Assembly: GCA_947258985.1 (NCBI GenBank)
Contig: CAMYKI010000014.1
Span: 1 to 57,930, forward strand
Source of the DNA: an uncultured Acidimicrobiaceae bacterium
GTDB lineage: Bacteria > Actinomycetota > Acidimicrobiia > Spongiisociales > UBA5794
DNA: 57,930 nucleotides
Direction of reading: 5' to 3'
Under the pieces are notes generated by a model, which saw only the letters and a program-made list of their open reading frames with translations, had not been told where the DNA came from and ran no database searches. This document shows positions 4,388 to 57,930 of the stretch, piece by piece. The position numbers and the translations under genes are program-made. Position 1 is the stretch's first letter, and the number at the start of each line of letters is the position of its first letter.

Positions 4388-5707
4388 TTACCTCCGGTTG
4401 TGCCGTCTGCGTGCGGTCAGTCGCAGGGGTGTCCCCATGAAGTCGTACTCCTCACGCAGCCGGTTCTCCAGATAGCGTAGGTAGTCCTCCCCGATATCGC
4501 CGCCTCGAAGGAACAGCACGAAGCTGGGTGGTTCGGTCTCAGCCTGCGAGGCATAGATGATCCGGGGCCGTTTCCCCTTCCTGACCGGCGGCGGGTGCGC
4601 CTGTTGCCACTGCCTGATCAGACGGTTCAGCTCTCCCGTCGGGATCCGATGCCTGCGATTCTCCAGTACCGCCCGAATTGCCGACGGGAGCCGGTGGACA
4701 CGGCTTCCGGTCTTTGCCGCCATTCTCAGTACCGGCGCCCAGGAGACAAAAGCAAGCCGGTCGGCTACTGAATCCTCAGTATGCTCCCGCTCTTCGTCGG
4801 TGATGATGTCCCACTTGTTGAGCAGCACGATCAGACCGGCTCCGGAGTCGGCGATCTCTTCCGCCAGGCGTTGTTCCTGGTGGGTCGCTCCCCTGGTTCC
4901 GTCGACTACGAGAAGGGCTACATCTGCCCTCCGCAAACTCTCCCGCGCCCGGATGACTGCGTAAAACTCGACGTCGTCCTTGATCTTGGTACGACGCTTG
5001 ATACCTGCAGTGTCGATAATCTCAAACGGCTCACCGTCCAGGTCGACCACGAGATTGATCGGATCCCGGGTGGTCCCCGGCACCTCAGAAACAAGTACCC
5101 GGTCGGTACCAGCCAGCTGGTTGAGCAGTGTTGACTTGCCGACGTTGGGTCTGCCGATAATCGCCAGACGAGCTATGTCCGATTCCTCAGACTCCTCATC
5201 CTCGAATACGGGCAATGCATCCACCAATTCGTCGAGGAAGTCCCCGGTCCCCCTTCCGTGCTTGGCGCTCACCGCGATGGGCTCTCCCAGCCCGAGACCC
5301 CACAGGTGCTCCAGGCTCTCTTCCTGGCGGGGCCCGTCCACCTTGTTCGCCACGAACAGGAACGGAACACCGCTGCGCAGCAGCAGGCGGGCGACGCCCT
5401 GATCGTCATCGACCACAGCGGATGTGGCATCGGCCACGAATATGACCAGGTCGGCGCCACCGACGGCAATCTCCGCTTGCTCTCTGATGTTCATCGTGAG
5501 CTCTTCGTCCGGGTTCAGCTCCCAGCCGCCGGTGTCTATGAGAAGGAAACGGTTGCCGAGCCAATCCGCATCGAACTCGCGGCGGTCCCTGGTCACCCCC
5601 GGCTGCTCATCGACCACAGCCGCTTTACGTTGCAGGATCCGGTTGACCAGGGTCGACTTCCCCACGTTGGGGCGACCGAGGATGGTGACGACGGGTAGCC
5701 GGCTCAT
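4388..5707 (-). CDS. der: Ribosome-assembly GTPase Der (EngA)
   Basis: A 439-residue protein with two tandem G domains, unique to Der. P-loops GRPNVGKS lie at residues 11-18 and 185-192, DTGG and DTAG switch motifs are present, NKVD is at 121-124 and NKWD in the second domain. A C-terminal KH-like domain ends in a basic tail (RLTARRRHNRR). It acts in 50S subunit maturation. The ATG overlaps the stop of the upstream DUF512 gene by 4 nt, and the carboxyltransferase follows by 2 bp. In mycobacteria der (Rv1713) also lies next to cmk and the scp/rlu genes, a conserved context seen here about 3 kb away. Confidence 0.97.
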   Translation of the reverse strand: MSRLPVVTILGRPNVGKSTLVNRILQRKAAVVDEQPGVTRDRREFDADWLGNRFLLIDTGGWELNPDEELTMNIREQAEIAVGGADLVIFVADATSAVVDDDQGVARLLLRSGVPFLFVANKVDGPRQEESLEHLWGLGLGEPIAVSAKHGRGTGDFLDELVDALPVFEDEESEESDIARLAIIGRPNVGKSTLLNQLAGTDRVLVSEVPGTTRDPINLVVDLDGEPFEIIDTAGIKRRTKIKDDVEFYAVIRARESLRRADVALLVVDGTRGATHQEQRLAEEIADSGAGLIVLLNKWDIITDEEREHTEDSVADRLAFVSWAPVLRMAAKTGSRVHRLPSAIRAVLENRRHRIPTGELNRLIRQWQQAHPPPVRKGKRPRIIYASQAETEPPSFVLFLRGGDIGEDYLRYLENRLREEYDFMGTPLRLTARRRHNRR

Positions 5708-7089
5708 GCGATAGCTCCGGCTATCAGCCCGGCCACAGTCGGCTGCACCACGTCGACCGGCTTCGAGGTGACCGCCGCCACGTCTTCGATGGCGGTGTCG
5801 TCGAGGAACCGGCCTCCGGGCACCGCTGTGTTCGGAACTAGATACCTCCTCACCGGACCGTCGTCTGCGCGCAGCGCCGCGGCCACGTCGTCACCAACGA
5901 GCAAGCCGGCCACGGCCACGTTTCCGCCAAAGAACTCGTTCTTCACACCCAAAACGCGCATCCGGCGCTCGGTGAGCGCTTCGAGACGGGGTAACAGATT
6001 GGCGAACATCTGCGCACCGTACTCGCCCGTGACGATCACGACGGGACCGTCGCCCGTATCCTCGGGTCCGCGGCGCTCGGGCCGTTCCTCCCGGTAGCCC
6101 TCGGCGGGGGCGGCCGGAATCTCTCTCCAGGCGCCCGTCATCTCCGGAAACGCTGCCGAACGACCCTCTTCCAGAACCTCGAGTTCGTCCACGAATCCCC
6201 GGATCATGCCTATGCCGTTCTCATGCTGAGCAAAGTCCTCGTAGTGCGGGCTTTCCGGCACCGTTTGGCCTGCGACTAGATACATCTCGTCCGACGCAAA
6301 GAACATGCGCCGTCCGATCCGCTTCCGAGCCTGCTCCTGCCAATAATGCACAATCTCGAGATCGGCGGCGGCGTCCTCTGCGGTGTGGGTGACGAGGCTG
6401 GTCTCCTTGCCGTGCTTCGACAGACCAAGGGGCACTATGCCCACGGAGGCCAGTCGTGGATATCGGATGAGGATCTCGGCACAAGTTTGCTCGAGCGTGG
6501 CACCGGAGTTGACACCCGGGCATAGGACTATCTGGCCGTGAACGGTGACGCCGTTGTCGAGGAGCGCTTGCAGCCAGCGAAGGCTCGTGGCCCCCCTCGG
6601 ATTGCGAAGCATCTGCGATCGGACTGCCGGGTCCGTGGCGTGAATCGATACGTACAAGGGCCCCAGCCGTTCTTCCACAACTCGCGCCAGGTCCAACTCA
6701 GTGAACCGCGTCAGCGTCGTGAAGTTGCCGTAGAGGAACGACAGTCGGTAATCATCGTCCTTCAAGTAGAGGGTGGTCCTCATCCCTGGGGGCAGCTGAT
6801 AGATGAAACAGAACTCGCAGTGGTTGTCGCAGGTCTGTACCCGGTCGAAGATCGACGAACTCAAGCGGAGGCCGAGCGGAGCGCCCGGCAACTTTTCGAT
6901 GGAGATCTCGTCGGTGTTACCGGACCGTCGCACCAATAGGGACAGGTCGGCTTCGTCAACCAGCTGCTGATACTCGATCACGTCGGTGGGGACGACGCCG
7001 TTGACGCTCAACAGCTCGTCGCCGCGTACCAGCCCAGCTTCCGCGGCGGGGCTGCCGGCCAATACTTCCAGGATTGTCGGATTCGACAT
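5704..7089 (-). CDS. DUF512-type radical-SAM protein with PDZ domain
   Basis: About 461 residues from the ATG at 7089. An upstream start at 7131 is possible but adds a 14-residue non-conserved leader. It begins with a PDZ-like domain (LAGSPAAEAGLVRGDELLSV), then has a radical-SAM cysteine cluster C-x3-C-x2-C at residues 87, 91 and 94 (CDNHCEFC), followed by the DUF512 region. The family is common next to der in actinobacteria and cyanobacteria. Its reaction is unknown; it should bind a 4Fe-4S cluster and S-adenosylmethionine. Its stop overlaps the der start by 4 nt. It diverges from ispH across about 75 bp, so promoters for both directions should lie in 7090-7164. Confidence 0.88.
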   Translation of the reverse strand: MSNPTILEVLAGSPAAEAGLVRGDELLSVNGVVPTDVIEYQQLVDEADLSLLVRRSGNTDEISIEKLPGAPLGLRLSSSIFDRVQTCDNHCEFCFIYQLPPGMRTTLYLKDDDYRLSFLYGNFTTLTRFTELDLARVVEERLGPLYVSIHATDPAVRSQMLRNPRGATSLRWLQALLDNGVTVHGQIVLCPGVNSGATLEQTCAEILIRYPRLASVGIVPLGLSKHGKETSLVTHTAEDAAADLEIVHYWQEQARKRIGRRMFFASDEMYLVAGQTVPESPHYEDFAQHENGIGMIRGFVDELEVLEEGRSAAFPEMTGAWREIPAAPAEGYREERPERRGPEDTGDGPVVIVTGEYGAQMFANLLPRLEALTERRMRVLGVKNEFFGGNVAVAGLLVGDDVAAALRADDGPVRRYLVPNTAVPGGRFLDDTAIEDVAAVTSKPVDVVQPTVAGLIAGAIA

Positions 7090-51058: not shown

Positions 51059-51442
51059 ATGATCGAATTCTCAGTGAACATGGTGAATCGTCCCGGCCAA
51101 CTCGCAACCCTGGCGCGCGAGCTGGGTGCGGCAGGTGTCAATATCGAAACCCTGGCCGCGTTTTCGACCGGTCCGGAGGCGTATGTGAAGCTCGTGGTGG
51201 ACAACCACGTCAGTGCACGAATCGTTCTGAAGAACGCCGGCGTCCCCTACGAGGAGCGCCGTATCGTTTCAGCAACCTTGCACGATTCCCCGGGAGCGCT
51301 CGCCCAAATGACCGAGGCCCTCGCCGCTACCGGCGTCAACATCGAGGCGATGTATCTGCTGCGCGCCGGAGCCGACGGCCTCCACTTCGCTCTCGCCGTG
51401 GACGATCCCGACAAGGCCAACAAGCACTTCGACGGCCGCTAG
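51059..51442 (+). CDS. Tandem ACT-domain protein
   Basis: A 127-residue protein made of two ACT domains (residues 1-62: IEFSVNMVNRPGQLATLARELGAAGVNIETLAAF; 65-127: RRIVSATLHDSPGALAQMTEALAATGVNIEAMYLL). ACT pairs bind small ligands such as amino acids and usually regulate enzymes; free-standing ones have unknown partners. It lies 27 bp from the start of the truncated cyclase frame. It is the last ordinary gene before the tRNA-Leu cassette array. Confidence 0.8.
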   Translation: MIEFSVNMVNRPGQLATLARELGAAGVNIETLAAFSTGPEAYVKLVVDNHVSARIVLKNAGVPYEERRIVSATLHDSPGALAQMTEALAATGVNIEAMYLLRAGADGLHFALAVDDPDKANKHFDGR

Positions 51443-51726
51443 TCGCCCTCGCGGCAGGACCGACATGACGGAGGCCGAGAACAACTCGGCCCCCGCTCTG
51501 TCAGCTCATAAGGTTGCGGTTACGTCGAACGGTCGGCAGCAGCCGAAGATGTGGACCGCCGAAAACCCTGTGCGACACAAGTGCGGACGCCTCGGCCACT
51601 CGCCACCCCATGTGAAGTTGGGTCTCCAAACTGCAACGAAGCGCGAGTTTCGGCCTGCCGAAACTCAAACTGAGCGGCAGTTTGCGTCCGCAAACTGCAA
51701 CGGACCCACCTTCGGTGGGTCCGCAG
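51443..51726. other. Spacer with three tandem perfect hairpins
   Basis: There is no gene. Three perfect inverted repeats follow each other: GAGTTTCGGC-ct-GCCGAAACTC (51645-51666), GCAGTTTGCG-tc-CGCAAACTGC (51677-51698) and CGGACCCACC-ttc-GGTGGGTCCG (51701-51723). The last ends 4 bp before the 3' end of the tRNA-Leu fragment and could be that tRNA's original terminator. The motif CAAACTGCAACG occurs twice (near 51627 and 51691). Confidence 0.75.
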
Positions 51727-51784
51727 TGTCGGAGAGAGGACTCGAACCTCCACGAGACAATGTCTCACTAGGCCCTCAACCTGG
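51727..51784 (-). repeat. tRNA-Leu (GAG) 3' half, att-like
   Basis: Minus strand: anticodon arm CCAGG-TTGAGGG-CCTAG (anticodon GAG), a long variable arm, T arm GGAGG-TTCGAGT-CCTCT, acceptor strand CTCCGAC and discriminator A; no CCA is encoded. The 5' acceptor and D arm are absent. The 5' anticodon strand CCAGG does not pair fully with CCTAG, whereas CCAGG is the sequence used in the UAG copies, so the joint appears hybrid. Confidence 0.75.
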
Positions 51785-51920
51785 GACCGTTCATCCCAAC
51801 CAGTCCCATCCTGTCCCAATACGTCCGGCTTATGGGGCGATTTCGACCGTTTCGGCCGGTGTTCATCCCATCCAATCCCGTCCTGTACCAGCGTGTTGGG
51901 TTGCAATCGGGTTGCAGTCG
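51785..51920. repeat. Attachment-site arm, copy 1
   Basis: Next to the tRNA half lies a block also found at 56392-56527. It contains two direct copies of a 20-27-nt unit of the form TCATCCCAwCCAGTCCCrTC (51791 and 51863), ending in CCTGT, and a shared end with TTGCAATCGGGTTGCAG. The first 48 bp are nearly identical in the two blocks. Repeats like these are typical arm-binding sites of tyrosine integrases. Confidence 0.65.
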
Positions 51921-51984
51921 AGTGGTGGCGAGTGCGTCCGCCCTACCGAAACTTGTGAGGAAAGCAAGGGGTCTTTGCGACGGC

Positions 51985-52929
51985 TTACGGCTCTGGCATG
52001 TGGTTCGGCTCGAATCCGACCGCGGCAAGGGCCTCGGCGATTGCAGCGGCGCCTGCGTCGTTGGGGTGATAGCCATCACCTTCAATCCAACCTCTCTCAC
52101 GTGGGTCTTCGTCGTGATTGGGGCCGTTGAACAGGTCGAATACCGGTACCAGTGTCACTCCTTGTGCTTCTGCGGCTTGCCGCAACACGGCGAAGTTGGA
52201 TTCCCACCCGGCGATGCACTCCCGCTCCTTCCCGACTTCTCGCCAATCGCTGATCATCCCGATGGGCGCGTCAACCGTGCGTAGTACGGTCGGGAGGCCC
52301 TGGCGCAAGTGCCACACCTCGGCGAAGAGGGCCTCTAGTTCTTGTCGGTATTCCTGCCAGTCTTCTTCGGTGTAGTCCTTGGTCGGCGCTGGAGAGTTTC
52401 TCTGGTCGTACCAGCAGGTGTCTAGCCACTCTCTGGACTCCGGCACCTCCCAATTCGGTACCCCGTAGATGACGATGATTTCGGCGTTTCGTATCAGATC
52501 GCCCATCTTTGGATAGCGGAGATCCTGTAGGTGTTGCAGTGCTTGTTGGGCGGTCAGGCGGGACAGGGCCTGTTCGTGGGCCTTGACCGTGACTCCCAAA
52601 GCCTTTTCCGCGTGGGTCGCATAGTGCTGCGCAACGCGGTAGCCGAATGAGTTGCTCAGGTAGACCAGGTCCCAGGCTTCGCCTTCGGCTGGCAGTTCCA
52701 GTCTCGGGTCACTGGTGGTTGTTGGCTCGGTCGTCGTGGTCGTTGTGGTCGTGGCAGGTGCTGCTGTGGTGGTTGCCGCTTCAGTGACGCTCGTTGCCGA
52801 TGCCGCCGCAGTGGTGCCGGTTGAGTCCGATTCGGAGGACCTGCAGGCCACCGTCGCCAGTGCGAGGACCATGAGCAGCGCGCAGCGGCGACGATTCGCG
52901 AGCATGGAAGAGAGGATGTTAAGAGCCAT
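51985..52929 (-). CDS. SGNH-type hydrolase lipoprotein
   Basis: About 314 residues from the ATG at 52929, which has GGAGG 6 nt upstream. A basic N-terminus and hydrophobic segment end in a lipobox (LATVAC), so it should be a lipoprotein. A Ser/Thr linker with a run of eight Thr follows (about residues 33-75). The catalytic domain begins VYLSNSFGYRVAQHY, with Ser in the block I position, and ends GDGYHPNDAGAAAIAEAL, the DxxH block V, as in SGNH/GDSL esterases. Substrates could be envelope glycans or lipids. It is the only gene between the first two tRNA-Leu fragments. Confidence 0.75.
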   Translation of the reverse strand: MALNILSSMLANRRRCALLMVLALATVACRSSESDSTGTTAAASATSVTEAATTTAAPATTTTTTTTEPTTTSDPRLELPAEGEAWDLVYLSNSFGYRVAQHYATHAEKALGVTVKAHEQALSRLTAQQALQHLQDLRYPKMGDLIRNAEIIVIYGVPNWEVPESREWLDTCWYDQRNSPAPTKDYTEEDWQEYRQELEALFAEVWHLRQGLPTVLRTVDAPIGMISDWREVGKERECIAGWESNFAVLRQAAEAQGVTLVPVFDLFNGPNHDEDPRERGWIEGDGYHPNDAGAAAIAEALAAVGFEPNHMPEP

Positions 52930-53103
52930 CGCTTGCCTCCAATCGCAAGCGCCCCCTTCCCCCAACTTCAACCATATCGGTGGGTGGCGAGAATGGTCGC
53001 AAGCAGAACAGATTTCGGCGAGAGGTGAGGGCCGCCATGCGTCGCGAATTGCATGGATCGCTTCTCGTTCCTGGCAGCGGGAATCGCGTCATCCAGGGGA
53101 AGT

Positions 53104-53161
53104 TGGTGCGGGCGAAGGGACTCGAACCCCCACGGGCATGTGCCTACCAGGACCCGCCTGG
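53104..53161 (-). repeat. tRNA-Leu (UAG type) 3' half, eroded anticodon loop
   Basis: The first 51 nt (53104-53154) are identical to 56332-56382: encoded CCA, discriminator A, acceptor CGCCCGC, a T arm and a long variable arm. The anticodon stem CCAGG/CCTGG is present but its loop has only 5 nt (CGGGT), so it is not functional. A single arm-like unit follows at 53174-53192 (TCATCCCAATCAGTCCTGT). No tRNA 5' half is present. Confidence 0.8.
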
Positions 53162-53313
53162 CCGTTCGCTGGGTCATCCCAATCAGTCCTGTGACGGACT
53201 CAGTCGCTGGTGCTTCCGTCGCCCTTCGCCCTGATGTTGTCGTACACCTTCTGGGCGATGTAGTCCCGGAACAGGACTGACGGGTATGTTTGGGGGTGTT
53301 CTGGGAGGCCGTG

Positions 53314-56300
53314 ATGGATCTTCGGATATTGGGACCGTTGGAGGTGTGGGACGGCAGCCACCAGGTTCCGGTCGACTCTCGGACCCAATGTGCCCTGTTG
53401 GCCTTGTTGGCGATTCATCCCAATGCGGTGGTTTCGACGGATCAGATCATTGACGCCTTGTGGGGTGATGATCCGCCGAGTTCGTCGTTGCAGACTCTGC
53501 GGTACCACGTATCGAAGCTGCGGGCTGCTCTGGGGGATGCTGCGGTTCATGTGGTGACACGCTCGCCGGGGTATGTGTTGGACGTGGAGGCGGACAACAT
53601 CGATGTGTACCGGTTCGAGGCGATGGTGGCTGAGGGTCGGGGTTTGATTGCTGCGGAGCCGGAGCGGGCGGCGCGGGTGTTGGTTGAGGCGTTGGGGATG
53701 TGGCGGGGGTCTCCGTTGGCGGATTTCACGTATGAGTCGTTCGCTCGTGGTGAGATTGTGCGGTTGGAGGAGTTGCGGTTGGCGGTGGTGGAGGACCGCG
53801 TCGCCGCTGATCTGGCATCGGGTCTTCATGTCGATTTGGTTGGTGAACTGGAAGCCTTGACGGCGGAGTATCCGTTGCGGGAGCGGTTGCGGGGCCAGTT
53901 GATGATTGCCCTTTATCGGAGTGGTCGTCAGGCGGAGGCGTTGCGGGCTTGTCAGCAGGCTCGTGATGCGTTGGGTGAGATCGGGATCGAACCATCGGAA
54001 GAGTTGCAGGCGATAGAGGAGCAGGTGTTGCTCCAGGACCCGTTGTTGATCGCGGCCAGACCTCCGACCCGGCGGCGCAACCTCCCGGAGCGGCTGAGCA
54101 GTTTCATCGGTCGCGACCGTGATATTGAAGAGGTTCGGCATCTGGTTGGCAACCATCGTCTGGTCACTCTGACGGGTGTGGGTGGTGTCGGGAAGACGAG
54201 CCTGGCGGTCGAGGTTGCCCGTACCCTGATCGGCGATTACTTCGATGGCGTCTGGTTTGTCGCAACCTCGGTGGTTGCCCATGCAGATCTCATCCCGGAA
54301 CGGCTTGCTCGCATCCTTGGCGTTCCCATTCGGACGCCCGAGGGTCTCATCGTCCAACTGGGCGACTACCTCTCGGAACGTGAGTCGTTGTTCGTCTTTG
54401 ATGGGTGCGAGCGTCATATCGACGATGTAGCGGGACTCGTTCAGTCTCTGCTTAGCGCGGCTCCCAGACTCCGGGTCATCGCCACCAGCCGGGAACCTCT
54501 GGAGGTTGTCGGCGAAAGTCGGTTTGAGGTGCCCCTTCTCGATACAGACGGGGTTGGGGCCGATGCTGTTCGCCTCTTCGAGGACCGGGCCGGTCTGGTA
54601 AAGCCCCGGTTCGCGATCACTTCGGGAAACGTCGACCTTGTTGCTCGAATTTGCCGCCGGGTCGCCGGTATCCCGCTTGCAGTTGAGTTGGCTGCGGCGC
54701 GTCTGGGCGGGCTTTCTCTCGACCAGATTGGCCAGCGTCTGGATGACCAGATGACGCTGCTTGCTCGAAGCCGCAAGGGTGAGTCACCCCACGGTTCGCT
54801 ACGAGCCGTTCTCGACTGGAGCCACGAGTTACTCGAACCCGCCGAGCAGACACTGTTCCGGCGGCTCGCCGTGTTCCGAGGTGGTGCCACCCTGGAGGCA
54901 GCCGAACTGGTTTGTGCGGACGAGATTCTTCCGATTGATGCAGTGTTCAATTTGCTTGCTCGCCTCGTCGACGTCTCGCTGGTTGTGGCGGACCGGGAAA
55001 CCGATCGATTCGAGATGCTGGACCCGGTGCGGCAGTACGCCGCACGGTGGCTTGATGCTGCTGGTGAGACCGAGCAGGTGAAACGTCGGCACGCGGTCTA
55101 CTACCGGGACCTGGCGCAACGAGCGTTTGATGGCGCTATCGGTCCGGAGGAGGTCAAGTGGTCTCGGGTGTGTGTTCGGGAAGAGCCGAATCACATAGCG
55201 GCTCTCTCCTGGGCACTCGATTCGGGAGAATCCGTCTTGGCGGTGGACACGGTGGCGTATCTCACGGAGTATTGGAAAGGTGCCGGTCGTGTTGCGACGA
55301 TGGACCGCTTTCTTGGCCCGGTGCTGGAGGAGGCTCGCAAGCGCCCTTCCCGAGCGCTCGTGATGCTGCTGGTTCTCGCTGCGTATCTGGAGCCGGGTCG
55401 TGGGGTGGCGCTCGCTGAGGAGGCCCTGGGAGTGGCTCGCGAACTTGACGATGAGTATGGGATCGGTCGTGCCCTGTTTCGGTTGGGTCCCACGGTTGGG
55501 TGGGAGGAGGACTTTGACCGTGGGGCCGCAATCACCAGGGAGGCGTTCGATTTTCTGGACCGGATTGGCGACCCGTTGGCGATGGGATGCTTGTTCAACC
55601 TTTCCGGGATGCTGGTTCGGGTTGAGGATGGGCTAGACGAGGCCGAAGCAGCAGCCCGAGAACTGTTGGAGCGCGGCGAGAGTTTCTCCTCTCTCGGGGC
55701 ACAAGCCGGGGCGTACACCGCGCTCGGGTGGGTCGCAGTGTGGCGCGGCGACCTCGACGTCGCCCGCAGCTACACAATCACAGCAATGGAAATGGCCGCG
55801 GAAGTACACAACCACCGCTGGGTCGTATGGGGAGGAAAAGCCCTCGTGGAAATAGAACTCGCGGCAGGGAACATTGACCGTGCCGTGGCCTACCAGGAGG
55901 AATACGGTCCGTTGATCAGGGAAATGTGGGACATGCTGTTCGCGCCCTCGGATGGCTTAGTCCAGATTGCCGTCGGAGACACAGAAAACGGTATCGCAAC
56001 GCTGCTCGATGCGCTGGACAGCTTTGCCGAGTCGAATGAAGCGGATGCCTTCCTTGTGCTGATTGCGCTCGCAGCGGTCTGTACTGAAACGGACGCCGTC
56101 ACATCAGTCCGCCTTTATGGAGCAACGGAGGCGATGCGGATACGCAAGAACCTGGCCCCCCCGGCATACGAAGCCCAAGCAATGGACGAGAACTGCACTC
56201 GACTACGCACCGCCCTCGGCGAGGAATCTTATGAGCGCGAATGGGCTAAAGGCGAGGCAATGACCACCGACCAGGTCGTGGCCTATGCTCGCAGCGCAAT

Positions 56301-56322
56301 GCAGCCCGAAGACGCGCACTAG
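53314..56322 (+). CDS. SARP/AfsR-type regulator with NB-ARC and TPR regions
   Basis: 1002 residues from the ATG at 53314, preceded by GGGAGG; an earlier start at 53290 adds 8 residues. Domains in order: an OmpR-type winged helix (DLRILGPLEVWDG...DALWGDDPPSSSLQTLRYHVSKLRAAL), a BTAD domain (about 100-250, ADNIDVYRFEAMVAEGR...EIGIEPSEELQAIEEQVL), an NB-ARC/STAND ATPase with Walker A TGVGGVGKTSLAVEVA near residue 290 and FDGCERHIDDVA, then a long TPR region. AfsR-like proteins activate secondary-metabolite or stress genes. It fills its cassette: its stop lies 9 bp before the next tRNA-Leu fragment. It is similar in its ATPase/TPR part to the gene at the window's end. Confidence 0.88.
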   Translation: MDLRILGPLEVWDGSHQVPVDSRTQCALLALLAIHPNAVVSTDQIIDALWGDDPPSSSLQTLRYHVSKLRAALGDAAVHVVTRSPGYVLDVEADNIDVYRFEAMVAEGRGLIAAEPERAARVLVEALGMWRGSPLADFTYESFARGEIVRLEELRLAVVEDRVAADLASGLHVDLVGELEALTAEYPLRERLRGQLMIALYRSGRQAEALRACQQARDALGEIGIEPSEELQAIEEQVLLQDPLLIAARPPTRRRNLPERLSSFIGRDRDIEEVRHLVGNHRLVTLTGVGGVGKTSLAVEVARTLIGDYFDGVWFVATSVVAHADLIPERLARILGVPIRTPEGLIVQLGDYLSERESLFVFDGCERHIDDVAGLVQSLLSAAPRLRVIATSREPLEVVGESRFEVPLLDTDGVGADAVRLFEDRAGLVKPRFAITSGNVDLVARICRRVAGIPLAVELAAARLGGLSLDQIGQRLDDQMTLLARSRKGESPHGSLRAVLDWSHELLEPAEQTLFRRLAVFRGGATLEAAELVCADEILPIDAVFNLLARLVDVSLVVADRETDRFEMLDPVRQYAARWLDAAGETEQVKRRHAVYYRDLAQRAFDGAIGPEEVKWSRVCVREEPNHIAALSWALDSGESVLAVDTVAYLTEYWKGAGRVATMDRFLGPVLEEARKRPSRALVMLLVLAAYLEPGRGVALAEEALGVARELDDEYGIGRALFRLGPTVGWEEDFDRGAAITREAFDFLDRIGDPLAMGCLFNLSGMLVRVEDGLDEAEAAARELLERGESFSSLGAQAGAYTALGWVAVWRGDLDVARSYTITAMEMAAEVHNHRWVVWGGKALVEIELAAGNIDRAVAYQEEYGPLIREMWDMLFAPSDGLVQIAVGDTENGIATLLDALDSFAESNEADAFLVLIALAAVCTETDAVTSVRLYGATEAMRIRKNLAPPAYEAQAMDENCTRLRTALGEESYEREWAKGEAMTTDQVVAYARSAMQPEDAH

Positions 56323-56331
56323 CGAGCCAGA

Positions 56332-56391
56332 TGGTGCGGGCGAAGGGACTCGAACCCCCACGGGCATGTGCCTACCAGGACCTAAACCTGG
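56332..56391 (-). repeat. tRNA-Leu (UAG) 3' half, att-like
   Basis: Minus strand: perfect anticodon arm CCAGG-TTTAGGT-CCTGG (anticodon TAG), a variable arm, a T arm with loop TTCGAGT, acceptor CGCCCGC, discriminator A and encoded CCA. The expected 5' acceptor GCGGGCG and D arm are missing; the sequence on the 5' side is the repeat-bearing arm. It shares 51 identical nt with 53104-53154. Confidence 0.85.
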
Positions 56392-56527
56392 GACCGTTCA
56401 TCCCATCCAGTCCCGTCCTGTCCCAATACGTCCGAGATCCCGGGCGATTCAGCCGGGTTCAAGAGGGGTTCGTCCCATCCTGTCCCGTCCTGTACCAGCG
56501 TGTTGGACTGCAATTGGGTTGCAGCGG
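56392..56527. repeat. Attachment-site arm, copy 2
   Basis: A block similar to 51785-51920, with direct repeat units at 56398 (TCATCCCATCCAGTCCCGTC) and 56470 (TCGTCCCATCCTGTCCCGTC), followed by a shared terminal segment with GTGTTGG and TTGGGTTGCAG. It lies between the tRNA-Leu half and the next gene and has no coding capacity. Confidence 0.65.
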
Positions 56528-56596
56528 GGTGATTGTGGTAGCGGCCCCGCGCACGGTCCTGCTGAGGTCGGGAATCTCTCCGGTGTCGGCGTGGTG

Positions 56597-57930
56597 TTAG
56601 TTGCTGAGTGCGTTGAGGGTCTTGGTGACGATTTCATCATCGAGACTGACGACGGGCGTGCATTCGAGAGCGGCTGGGGCGTAGCGGTGTTGTTCGGCGA
56701 GGGCTGAGCAGTGACCGAGGAGGACCGCTGCAGTCTCGTTGTCGTTGGTGTGTGCGAACCATTCGGCCGCGGCGTAGAACGTTTCCCACAGTCGGTAACG
56801 GTTCCCAAGAGTGTGGGTGTTCTTGATGGCTGCGCGGAGTCTAATTCTGGCCGACTCGATGTCGCCGCTGCGGAGATCGACAAGGCCAAGGCTGCTATGC
56901 GAGGTGTCAGTCGCTATTCCGTGGTCGTGCCAGAACCTCTCCTGAGACTCGAGAATTGGGCGGGCCTCGTCGATCTGCCCAAGGTTGACTAGGGCAGCGG
57001 CGATCATGCCCACGAAGTTCTTGGAAGCCAATTCAGACCTCGCGAGGGCAAGACCTCTTCGGGCCAGTTCCAAAGAGCCTTGATGATCGCCCTCGTATGC
57101 GGCAGTGAGACTGTCCACGGCGAGTGCCCTGCGCTGGCCGTCAGTCTCCTCATGGTCGAATCGTTCGGCGAGTTCCCGGACACGATCGATTTCCCCGATC
57201 AGCACGGCGATGTGCGCGAGATTCCAGAGATGACGAGACATTCTCGGATCACCGTCGTCATCGGCACGAGCGAGGGCCGCCTCTTCATAGGCGACCGATT
57301 CGACCACATCACCTCTATTGAGAGCTAGCTGGCCTCGCCAGGTGGAGATATCGGCTATGCCGTATGCGATTTCTAGGCGGCCAGCTAGCCGATCGGCTTC
57401 ATCGAGAGACGCCGCGGCGCGAATCCGGTCGTCCATGACTGCATGTGCACGACCGAGGAATGTGGTCGCGGCAAATCTCAGGGACGTCTCCGGGCAGTCG
57501 TCCCGGTTTAGTACGGTGTCGAGATGGCCAATTGCCTCGCGGGTATTTGCCGCGCTCACCAAGCTTTCGGCCAATGGGGTGACGATTTCGAGTGCCGCCT
57601 CAAGAACGCCGGTTTGGAGCGTCCAGTCGAGGGCGTGTTGCAGGTTGGCGAGATCATTCTTGATCACATCACGCCACGCCAGGGCCTCCTCTGGTGAGTC
57701 TGGCTTCGGGCTGAACGGTGTGTCCATTCGCTCAAAGGCTTGGCGCGCCATGGAGGCATAGTGGGCAGCGTGCCTCTGTCGCACCTCAGTCATCTCGCCC
57801 TGCTCGTTGAGGAGTCCGGTGGCGTATTCGCCGACGGTATCGAGAAGCACATAGCGGGTCGTAGTTCCCGGGGTGGAGACGGTGACGAGGGACGCGTCAA
57901 CGAGCCTCTCAACCCCATCGGCAATCACAC
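56597..57930 (-). CDS. C-terminal part of an AfsR/LuxR-like STAND regulator, partial
   Basis: At least 444 codons, open to the end of the window, so the N-terminus lies outside it. The visible part begins in a winged-helix-like segment (GVERLVDASLVTVSTPGTTTRYVLLDTVGEYATGLLNEQGE), which corresponds to the segment RLVDVSLVVADRETDRFEMLDP of the plus-strand regulator. It continues as TPR repeats (e.g. RGDVVESVAYEEAALARADDDGD, LRSGDIESARIRLRAAIKNTH). It is presumably a transcriptional activator with an NB-ARC module upstream. It lies beyond the third tRNA-Leu fragment and is oriented against the SARP gene. Related regulators in neighbouring cassettes suggest a family of cargo genes. Confidence 0.75.
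   Translation of the reverse strand, partial: VIADGVERLVDASLVTVSTPGTTTRYVLLDTVGEYATGLLNEQGEMTEVRQRHAAHYASMARQAFERMDTPFSPKPDSPEEALAWRDVIKNDLANLQHALDWTLQTGVLEAALEIVTPLAESLVSAANTREAIGHLDTVLNRDDCPETSLRFAATTFLGRAHAVMDDRIRAAASLDEADRLAGRLEIAYGIADISTWRGQLALNRGDVVESVAYEEAALARADDDGDPRMSRHLWNLAHIAVLIGEIDRVRELAERFDHEETDGQRRALAVDSLTAAYEGDHQGSLELARRGLALARSELASKNFVGMIAAALVNLGQIDEARPILESQERFWHDHGIATDTSHSSLGLVDLRSGDIESARIRLRAAIKNTHTLGNRYRLWETFYAAAEWFAHTNDNETAAVLLGHCSALAEQHRYAPAALECTPVVSLDDEIVTKTLNALSN

Follow-up and report, generated by a model that had tools for sequence, protein, structure and literature searches.

Putative integrase-less integrative cassettes arrayed at the 3' end of a tRNA-Leu(GAG) gene in an Acidimicrobiia genome

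The window, i.e. the whole stretch of 57,930 bp that was analysed, is part of contig C14 (59,782 bases) of draft genome G000 (93% complete, 150 contigs). Its right-hand portion probably represents an array of small integrative cassettes, which lack an integrase of their own, were moved in trans and have built up behind the 3' half of a tRNA-Leu(GAG) gene; we assign this reading a probability of roughly 0.7. With good grounds in the sequence, the units can be regarded as minimal CIME-like cassettes mobilised in trans by tRNA-specific tyrosine integrases. Each unit comprises a tRNA-Leu 3' half as att core, an arm of ~140-190 bp, in which repeats of the integrase type are found, and in most cases a single gene.

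The earlier note on this DNA had described three same-oriented tRNA-Leu 3' halves. Indeed, the minus strand carries three such halves (51726, 53104 and 56332). They are, however, not copies of a single tRNA: the first is of the GAG type, while the second and the third are of the UAG type. Core 1 (51726 to ~51782) matches an intact tRNA-Leu(GAG) gene located at G000:C43:220-306, with whose 3' half it agrees in 51/51 nt, and would correspond to the displaced, attR-like chromosomal end. Core 2 (53104 to ~53158) is a tRNA-Leu(UAG)-type 3' half with an encoded CCA and a damaged anticodon part, and core 3 (56332 to ~56389) is a tRNA-Leu(UAG) 3' half, in which CCA is likewise encoded. The latter two share 98% identity across 54 nt. 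A complete tRNA called by ARAGORN at 51726 proved to be false, as copy 1 departs from the true gene directly after the anticodon: CTCAACCT is followed by GGGACCG in copy 1 as compared to AGCGCG in the C43 gene. A predicted terminator-like hairpin (GGACCCACC-TTCG-GGTGGGTCC; 51700..51725) borders the displaced half at its 3' end. When the whole 3.6-Mb G000 assembly was searched for additional half copies, only short and weak matches to other tRNA-type sequences were obtained. Since no further copy exists in the assembly, a chance origin of the three halves is excluded.

An intact tRNA-Leu gene, for which the earlier note had proposed to look to the right of the array, was found in the form of the GAG copy on contig C43, where it starts 220 bases into the contig and is followed by oppF. 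The congeners G002 and G003 exhibit the gene order DivIVA...tRNA-Leu(GAG)-oppF without half copies, and the DivIVA/ACT side present in the window stops at core 1. Most simply, C14 and C43 thus flank a single tRNA-Leu(GAG) site, and everything to the right of position 51782 would be inserted DNA. The chromosomal flank to the left of the array includes a gene for an ACT-domain protein (51059..51442, plus strand; Pfam ACT), and G006 has a homologue with a near-identical N-terminus (L065 16883-17266), likewise on this side of its tRNA-Leu(GAG) site. The middle between C14 and C43 is unassembled, and the array is interrupted by contig ends; the first 80 bases of C43 contain a reading-frame end of 25 aa. 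An intact tRNA-Leu(UAG) gene of G000 was not found in the draft assembly.

The repeat-bearing arms noted beside the fragments hold for copies 1 and 3, but not for copy 2. Arm 1 (51783..51918, plus strand) contains two repeats of the type TTCATCCCA..CAGTCCC and terminates in TTGGGTTGCAATCGGGTTGCAG, and arm 3 (56390..56525, plus strand) has the same architecture; repeats of the TTCRTCCCATCC.GTCCCGTCCTGT type occur twice in both arms, which have a common terminus, with small differences in arm 3. Arm 2 (53159..53205, plus strand) is a degenerate remnant (GGGTCATCCCAATCAGTCCTGT...), which like arm 1 is covered by alignment A1. Arms 1 and 3 are about 81-83% identical over ~140 nt, whereas arm 1 shares 86-87% identity with the arms of G001 and thus resembles these more closely than arm 3 from the same genome, to which it is 81% identical in this comparison. 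Among the genomes of the class, the arm-end motif is present in 13/395, as compared to 0 for a reversed-pattern control. The arm is absent from the plasmid and phage records searched, and the exact core-arm junction pattern was recovered from four other contigs in the genome contig collection and from none of the viral contigs.

According to the earlier note, each segment carries a single cargo gene. This applies to segments 1 and 2, which contain one intact gene each, while the third gene exceeds the window. Cargo 1 (51985..52971, minus strand) encodes a GDSL-type lipoprotein (Pfam Lipase_GDSL above cut-off), which shares 39% identity over 226 aa with the cargo of a G004 cassette. Cargo 2 (53290..56322, plus strand; ATG start probably at 53314) encodes a SARP regulator with BTAD, NB-ARC and TPR domains according to Pfam, and its stop codon ends 9 nt ahead of core 3. 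Only one close relative of cargo 2 was detected among 60 genomes. It is located in a tRNA-Leu cassette of G032, has the same orientation and is 68% identical over its full length. The SARP cassettes of two genera have a common orientation and a SARP-to-core gap of ~10 nt. Cargo 3 (56597..57928, minus strand) had been taken for a merely partial STAND regulator, but C14 continues to 59782 and contains the 5' part of this gene as well (up to C14:59612), revealing a second SARP/BTAD-NB-ARC regulator, of which the C-terminal part lies in the window. A scaffold gap of 24 N with a 22-bp overlap is present at 57932-57955. The N-terminal part of the cargo 3 product, encoded past the window, is 48% identical to the cargo 2 product over 541 aa. 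As judged from Pfam and comparison of the cargo, neighbouring genes are mostly unrelated.

The cores and arms are not unique to this locus, contrary to one of the outcomes that the earlier note would have taken as a refutation. Related ones were detected in arrays of two genera, namely g1 (G000, G001, G004, G006) and g12 (G017, G032). The segments, of which 17 were measured, have a median size of 2.2 kb (range 0.9-4.4 kb). A parallel family in g12 employs tRNA-Arg(ACG) halves together with a similarly built arm and an identical end motif; in G045, this family comprises more than 10 halves distributed over several contigs. Related arms accompany unrelated cargo in other species. Some kinds of cargo recur across arrays: G000 and G032 both have SARP regulators, G000 shares GDSL-like lipoproteins with G004, and a related repeat protein is encoded in G001 and G032 as well as in the Arg array of G045. 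Occupancy of the sites is polymorphic among relatives, contrary to what is expected for a fixed, syntenic locus. The tRNA-Leu(GAG) site is empty in G002, G003 and G017, is occupied by a single insert of ~1.2 kb in G006 and by a single insert of ~1.5 kb with an integrase scrap in G004, and contains at least three segments in G000; the inserts of G004 and G006 differ from the G000 segments. At the tRNA-Leu(UAG) site, at least two cassettes adjoin the intact tRNA gene in G001, one or two cassettes are present in G017 and none in G002 and G045. In G032, this site lacks a second half and an integrase scrap is found 1.4 kb off.

In line with the earlier note, no integrase gene is present in any array cassette. 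Candidate movers are encoded elsewhere. A 38-kb element at tRNA-Leu(GAG) in G014 and a 14-kb element at tRNA-Leu(CAG) in G355 each carry an Arm-DNA-bind/Phage_integrase protein and the same arm-end motif. The G355 integrase copy may be truncated, as its reading frame comprises 340 aa and the Pfam match ends at profile position 140/172. Integrases of the same group are also located at tRNA-Leu genes in G008, G013, G050 and G118, and C-terminal scraps of such integrases adjoin the tRNA gene in G004, G006 and G032, which adds to the link between this group and the inserts. None of the Leu cassette arrays, which are cut by contig ends, was found to be connected to an intact integrase gene. The integrases of G000 identified by Pfam scan reside at tRNA-Val, at tRNA-Gln and near tRNA-Ala/Ile, and none of them has the Leu arm. 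An integrase on contig C38 of G006 was rejected as mover, since it is located at tRNA-Met.

How could such units move? A tRNA-specific tyrosine integrase of the G014/G355 group would be provided by another element and would recombine two adjacent cores, thereby releasing a circle composed of core, arm and gene. This circle would insert into the core of a tRNA gene, whereby the 3' half of the cassette would replace that of the tRNA. Consequently, the newest units would enter beside the intact tRNA gene and the original 3' half would be pushed to the far end, here at 51726. The role of the tRNA 3' halves as att cores, as put forward by the earlier note, is supported. CCA is encoded in 4/5 intact tRNA-Leu genes beside an insert vs. 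0/8 genes without insert (Fisher p = 0.007), in a small sample of related species. Against this, the intact tRNA-Leu(GAG) gene of G000 lacks CCA. Moreover, the cassette cores of G032 carry the variant CCCTTCGCCCGC, whereas the tRNA-Leu(UAG) of G032 itself reads CCCTCCGCCCGC; in the family, the intact tRNA-Leu(UAG) genes that were seen have the CCCTTCGCCCGC variant in genus g1 only. One of these cores, core c, equals the 3' half of the G002 tRNA apart from the added CCA. Further observations speak against the cassette model. First, UAG-type cores in an array at a GAG site predict a mismatched hybrid tRNA if exchange takes place in the anticodon loop. The far core of G006 is chimeric, with acceptor and T-arm of the GAG type and variable arm and anticodon of the UAG type, which points to the T-loop, where the two tRNAs do not differ in sequence, as the place of exchange, but this chimera leaves the mismatch between UAG core and GAG tRNA standing. 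Second, the relatedness of the neighbouring SARP genes in the window (48%) makes a duplication of that gene possible.

Alternatively, the segments could be remnants of autonomous islands that lost their integrase by deletion, in which case the array would be a fossil that is now immobile. We consider such decay and accretion unlikely, albeit deserving serious attention. C-terminal scraps of a G014/G355-group integrase indeed adjoin the tRNA within the inserts of G004, G006 and G032, core and arm are degenerate at copy 2, and a route through accretion to tandem structures and CIMEs has been described (PMC5704250). However, tblastn searches detected no trace of an integrase in the array cassettes of L009, L062, L063, L064 and L067 at E < 0.1. 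In addition, each of several independent deletions would have had to spare the same arm and leave roughly one gene intact, and the shared orientation and spacing of the SARP cassettes in two genera likewise argue against decay. It is very improbable that the segments were spread by ordinary homologous recombination or by tandem duplication between the repeated tRNA halves, with no site-specific step involved. The cores do constitute recombinogenic repeats, in which contigs often break, and the two SARP genes of the window are related. Yet, the insertions begin at the tRNA, whose 3' end is rebuilt, the arms are not most alike within one genome, and the genes of most adjacent segments are unrelated; the unrelated neighbouring cargo and the closest similarity of arm 1 to the G001 arms thus argue against local duplication. 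An artefact of MAG assembly or binning is scarcely credible, because the same architecture with syntenic chromosomal flanks recurs in at least five other assemblies, even though the array-bearing genomes whose records were examined are all MAGs and a scaffold gap with overlap is present in C14.

In its presumed way of working, the cassette array resembles CIMEs and the tRNA cassettes of additive islands. CIMEs and their accretion are reviewed in PMC5704250 with reference to Pavlovic 2004 and Bellanger 2011. CIMEs retain att sites. Like the cassettes, they lack integrase and transfer genes and form tandems at the 3' terminus of a tRNA gene or another gene, and they depend on another element, as the cassettes would; they are, however, decayed ICEs or IMEs and usually form a tandem with one functional element (PMC5704250). 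The units studied here mostly consist of one gene of 1-3 kb, with several in a row and a single conserved arm each. Cargo Pfam analysis and integrase tblastn revealed no integration or transfer genes, and a core is present at each end, while the conserved arm is found on one side only. The array also exhibits the traits of additive-island tRNA cassettes, i.e. small cassettes at a tRNA gene, direct repeats of partial tRNA and variable occupancy among relatives. Actinomarinales are an order within the class Acidimicrobiia. For their flexible island fGI1, the compared passages of PMC7771536 report small gene cassettes at tRNA genes, partial-tRNA direct repeats and exchange between genera. Hence, the assumption of the earlier note that this form is unfamiliar in actinobacteria is not supported. 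The fGI1 island is mainly concerned with cell-envelope sugars, and in these passages neither a conserved arm nor an integrase link nor a rebuilt CCA is described; the word "integrase" is absent from the text of PMC7771536. A literature search combining Acidimicrobiia, integrase and cassette yielded nothing specific.

Parallels exist in other bacteria and among complete elements. The ssrA islands of Dehalococcoides form chains downstream of one RNA gene, are bordered by short duplicates of the 3' terminus of this gene and in 15/31 cases lack an integration module (PMC3146451), but they differ by their integrase DsiB, which is related to staphylococcal Ccr, by the tmRNA target and by the frequent rdhA cargo (PMC3146451). 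In the additive island fGI-2 of Methylophilaceae, the terminal 20 nt of a tRNA-Lys recur repeatedly, and the islands start from 330 bp and one gene; these bacteria are Proteobacteria, and arm or integrase are not described in the compared passages (PMC10872708). The earlier note had also invoked tycheposons, which according to the summary consulted in PMC10872708 are tRNA-bordered, measure 4-200 kb and possess their own tyrosine recombinase. This label is not supported, as among the tested features the recombinase-free segments of 0.9-4.4 kb have only the tRNA-linked insertion of cargo in common with them. AICEs are recognised by int, rep and FtsK-like tra genes, and none of these is found among the cargo. 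Tandem AICEs likewise insert at tRNA genes of actinobacteria through tyrosine integrases, but are complete and possess int, rep and tra genes, in contrast to the cassettes (PMC3218068). Phage satellites of the PICI or P4-like type, which encode an integrase of their own and phage-hijacking genes, are not supported by the Pfam content of the cargo or by the searches of phage, plasmid and viral records. In integrons, the intI integrase adjoins an array with attC hairpin sites. The cores described here consist of tRNA 3' halves located at tRNA genes, and the Leu arrays, as far as they are assembled, showed no adjoining integrase gene.

A wider reading, which we regard as possible but tentative, is that of a tRNA-based counterpart of the integron. 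Here, mostly one-gene cassettes, each with a dedicated integrase arm, would pass from one Acidimicrobiia genus to another and be lined up at tRNA-Leu or tRNA-Arg genes by integrases encoded elsewhere, the tRNA 3' end being remade upon each insertion. As far as the compared passages go, it is new that the units mostly hold one gene and have a single conserved arm, as are the use of two tRNA families, the link to an integrase group and the donor-tagged cores. If the cassettes are mobile, very small units of gene and att site would shuffle between genera without a recombinase, the tRNA core would tag the donor lineage, and the one-by-one build-up of regulators, lipoproteins and enzymes at tRNA genes would be explained. 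A simple sequence signature for detection of such arrays would also be gained. Finally, the SARP proteins of G000 and G032 are 68% identical and the core protein Lon 67%. As both diverged to a similar extent, the SARP cassette may be old and vertically inherited.

Many tRNA-Arg(ACG) half-cores in the array of G045, a relative from genus g12, carry a small hairpin in place of the T-loop (loci L184, L186, L261 and L278). Examples are CCTGTCC-GGCA-GGACAGG, CCTGTCG-CCTG-CGACAGG and CCTGTCG-CCCT-CGACAGG, and covariation is seen between both sides of the hairpin. A half-core altered in this manner would probably fail to restore a working tRNA. An IS110-type transposase gene also lies within this array (L184, 6607-7632). 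In another relative, G118, the 5' half of tRNA-Leu(GAG) passes directly into an element (contig C70, L190, near 5100-5870). This element contains an integrase scrap as well as the arm-end motif, and a restored 3' half of the tRNA is apparently missing.

Left of core 1 of the tRNA-Leu array in G000, imperfect AAACTGCAACG / GAGTTTCGGC repeats are present within 51600-51702, and such repeats recur at the end of the same contig (C14:59680-59782). Just past the window end, the second SARP gene is interrupted by a 24-N scaffold gap (C14:57932-57955), which is flanked on either side by identical 22 bases and is probably an overlap left unclosed by the assembler. Elsewhere in G000, ordinary integrase genes (contigs C53, C72, C66 and C11; L079-L082) adjoin tRNA-Val and tRNA-Gln or lie near tRNA-Ala/Ile. 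Two of these contigs, C53 and C72, have a terminator hairpin separating integrase from tRNA, a placement resembling that left of the intact tRNA-Leu(GAG) on contig C43.
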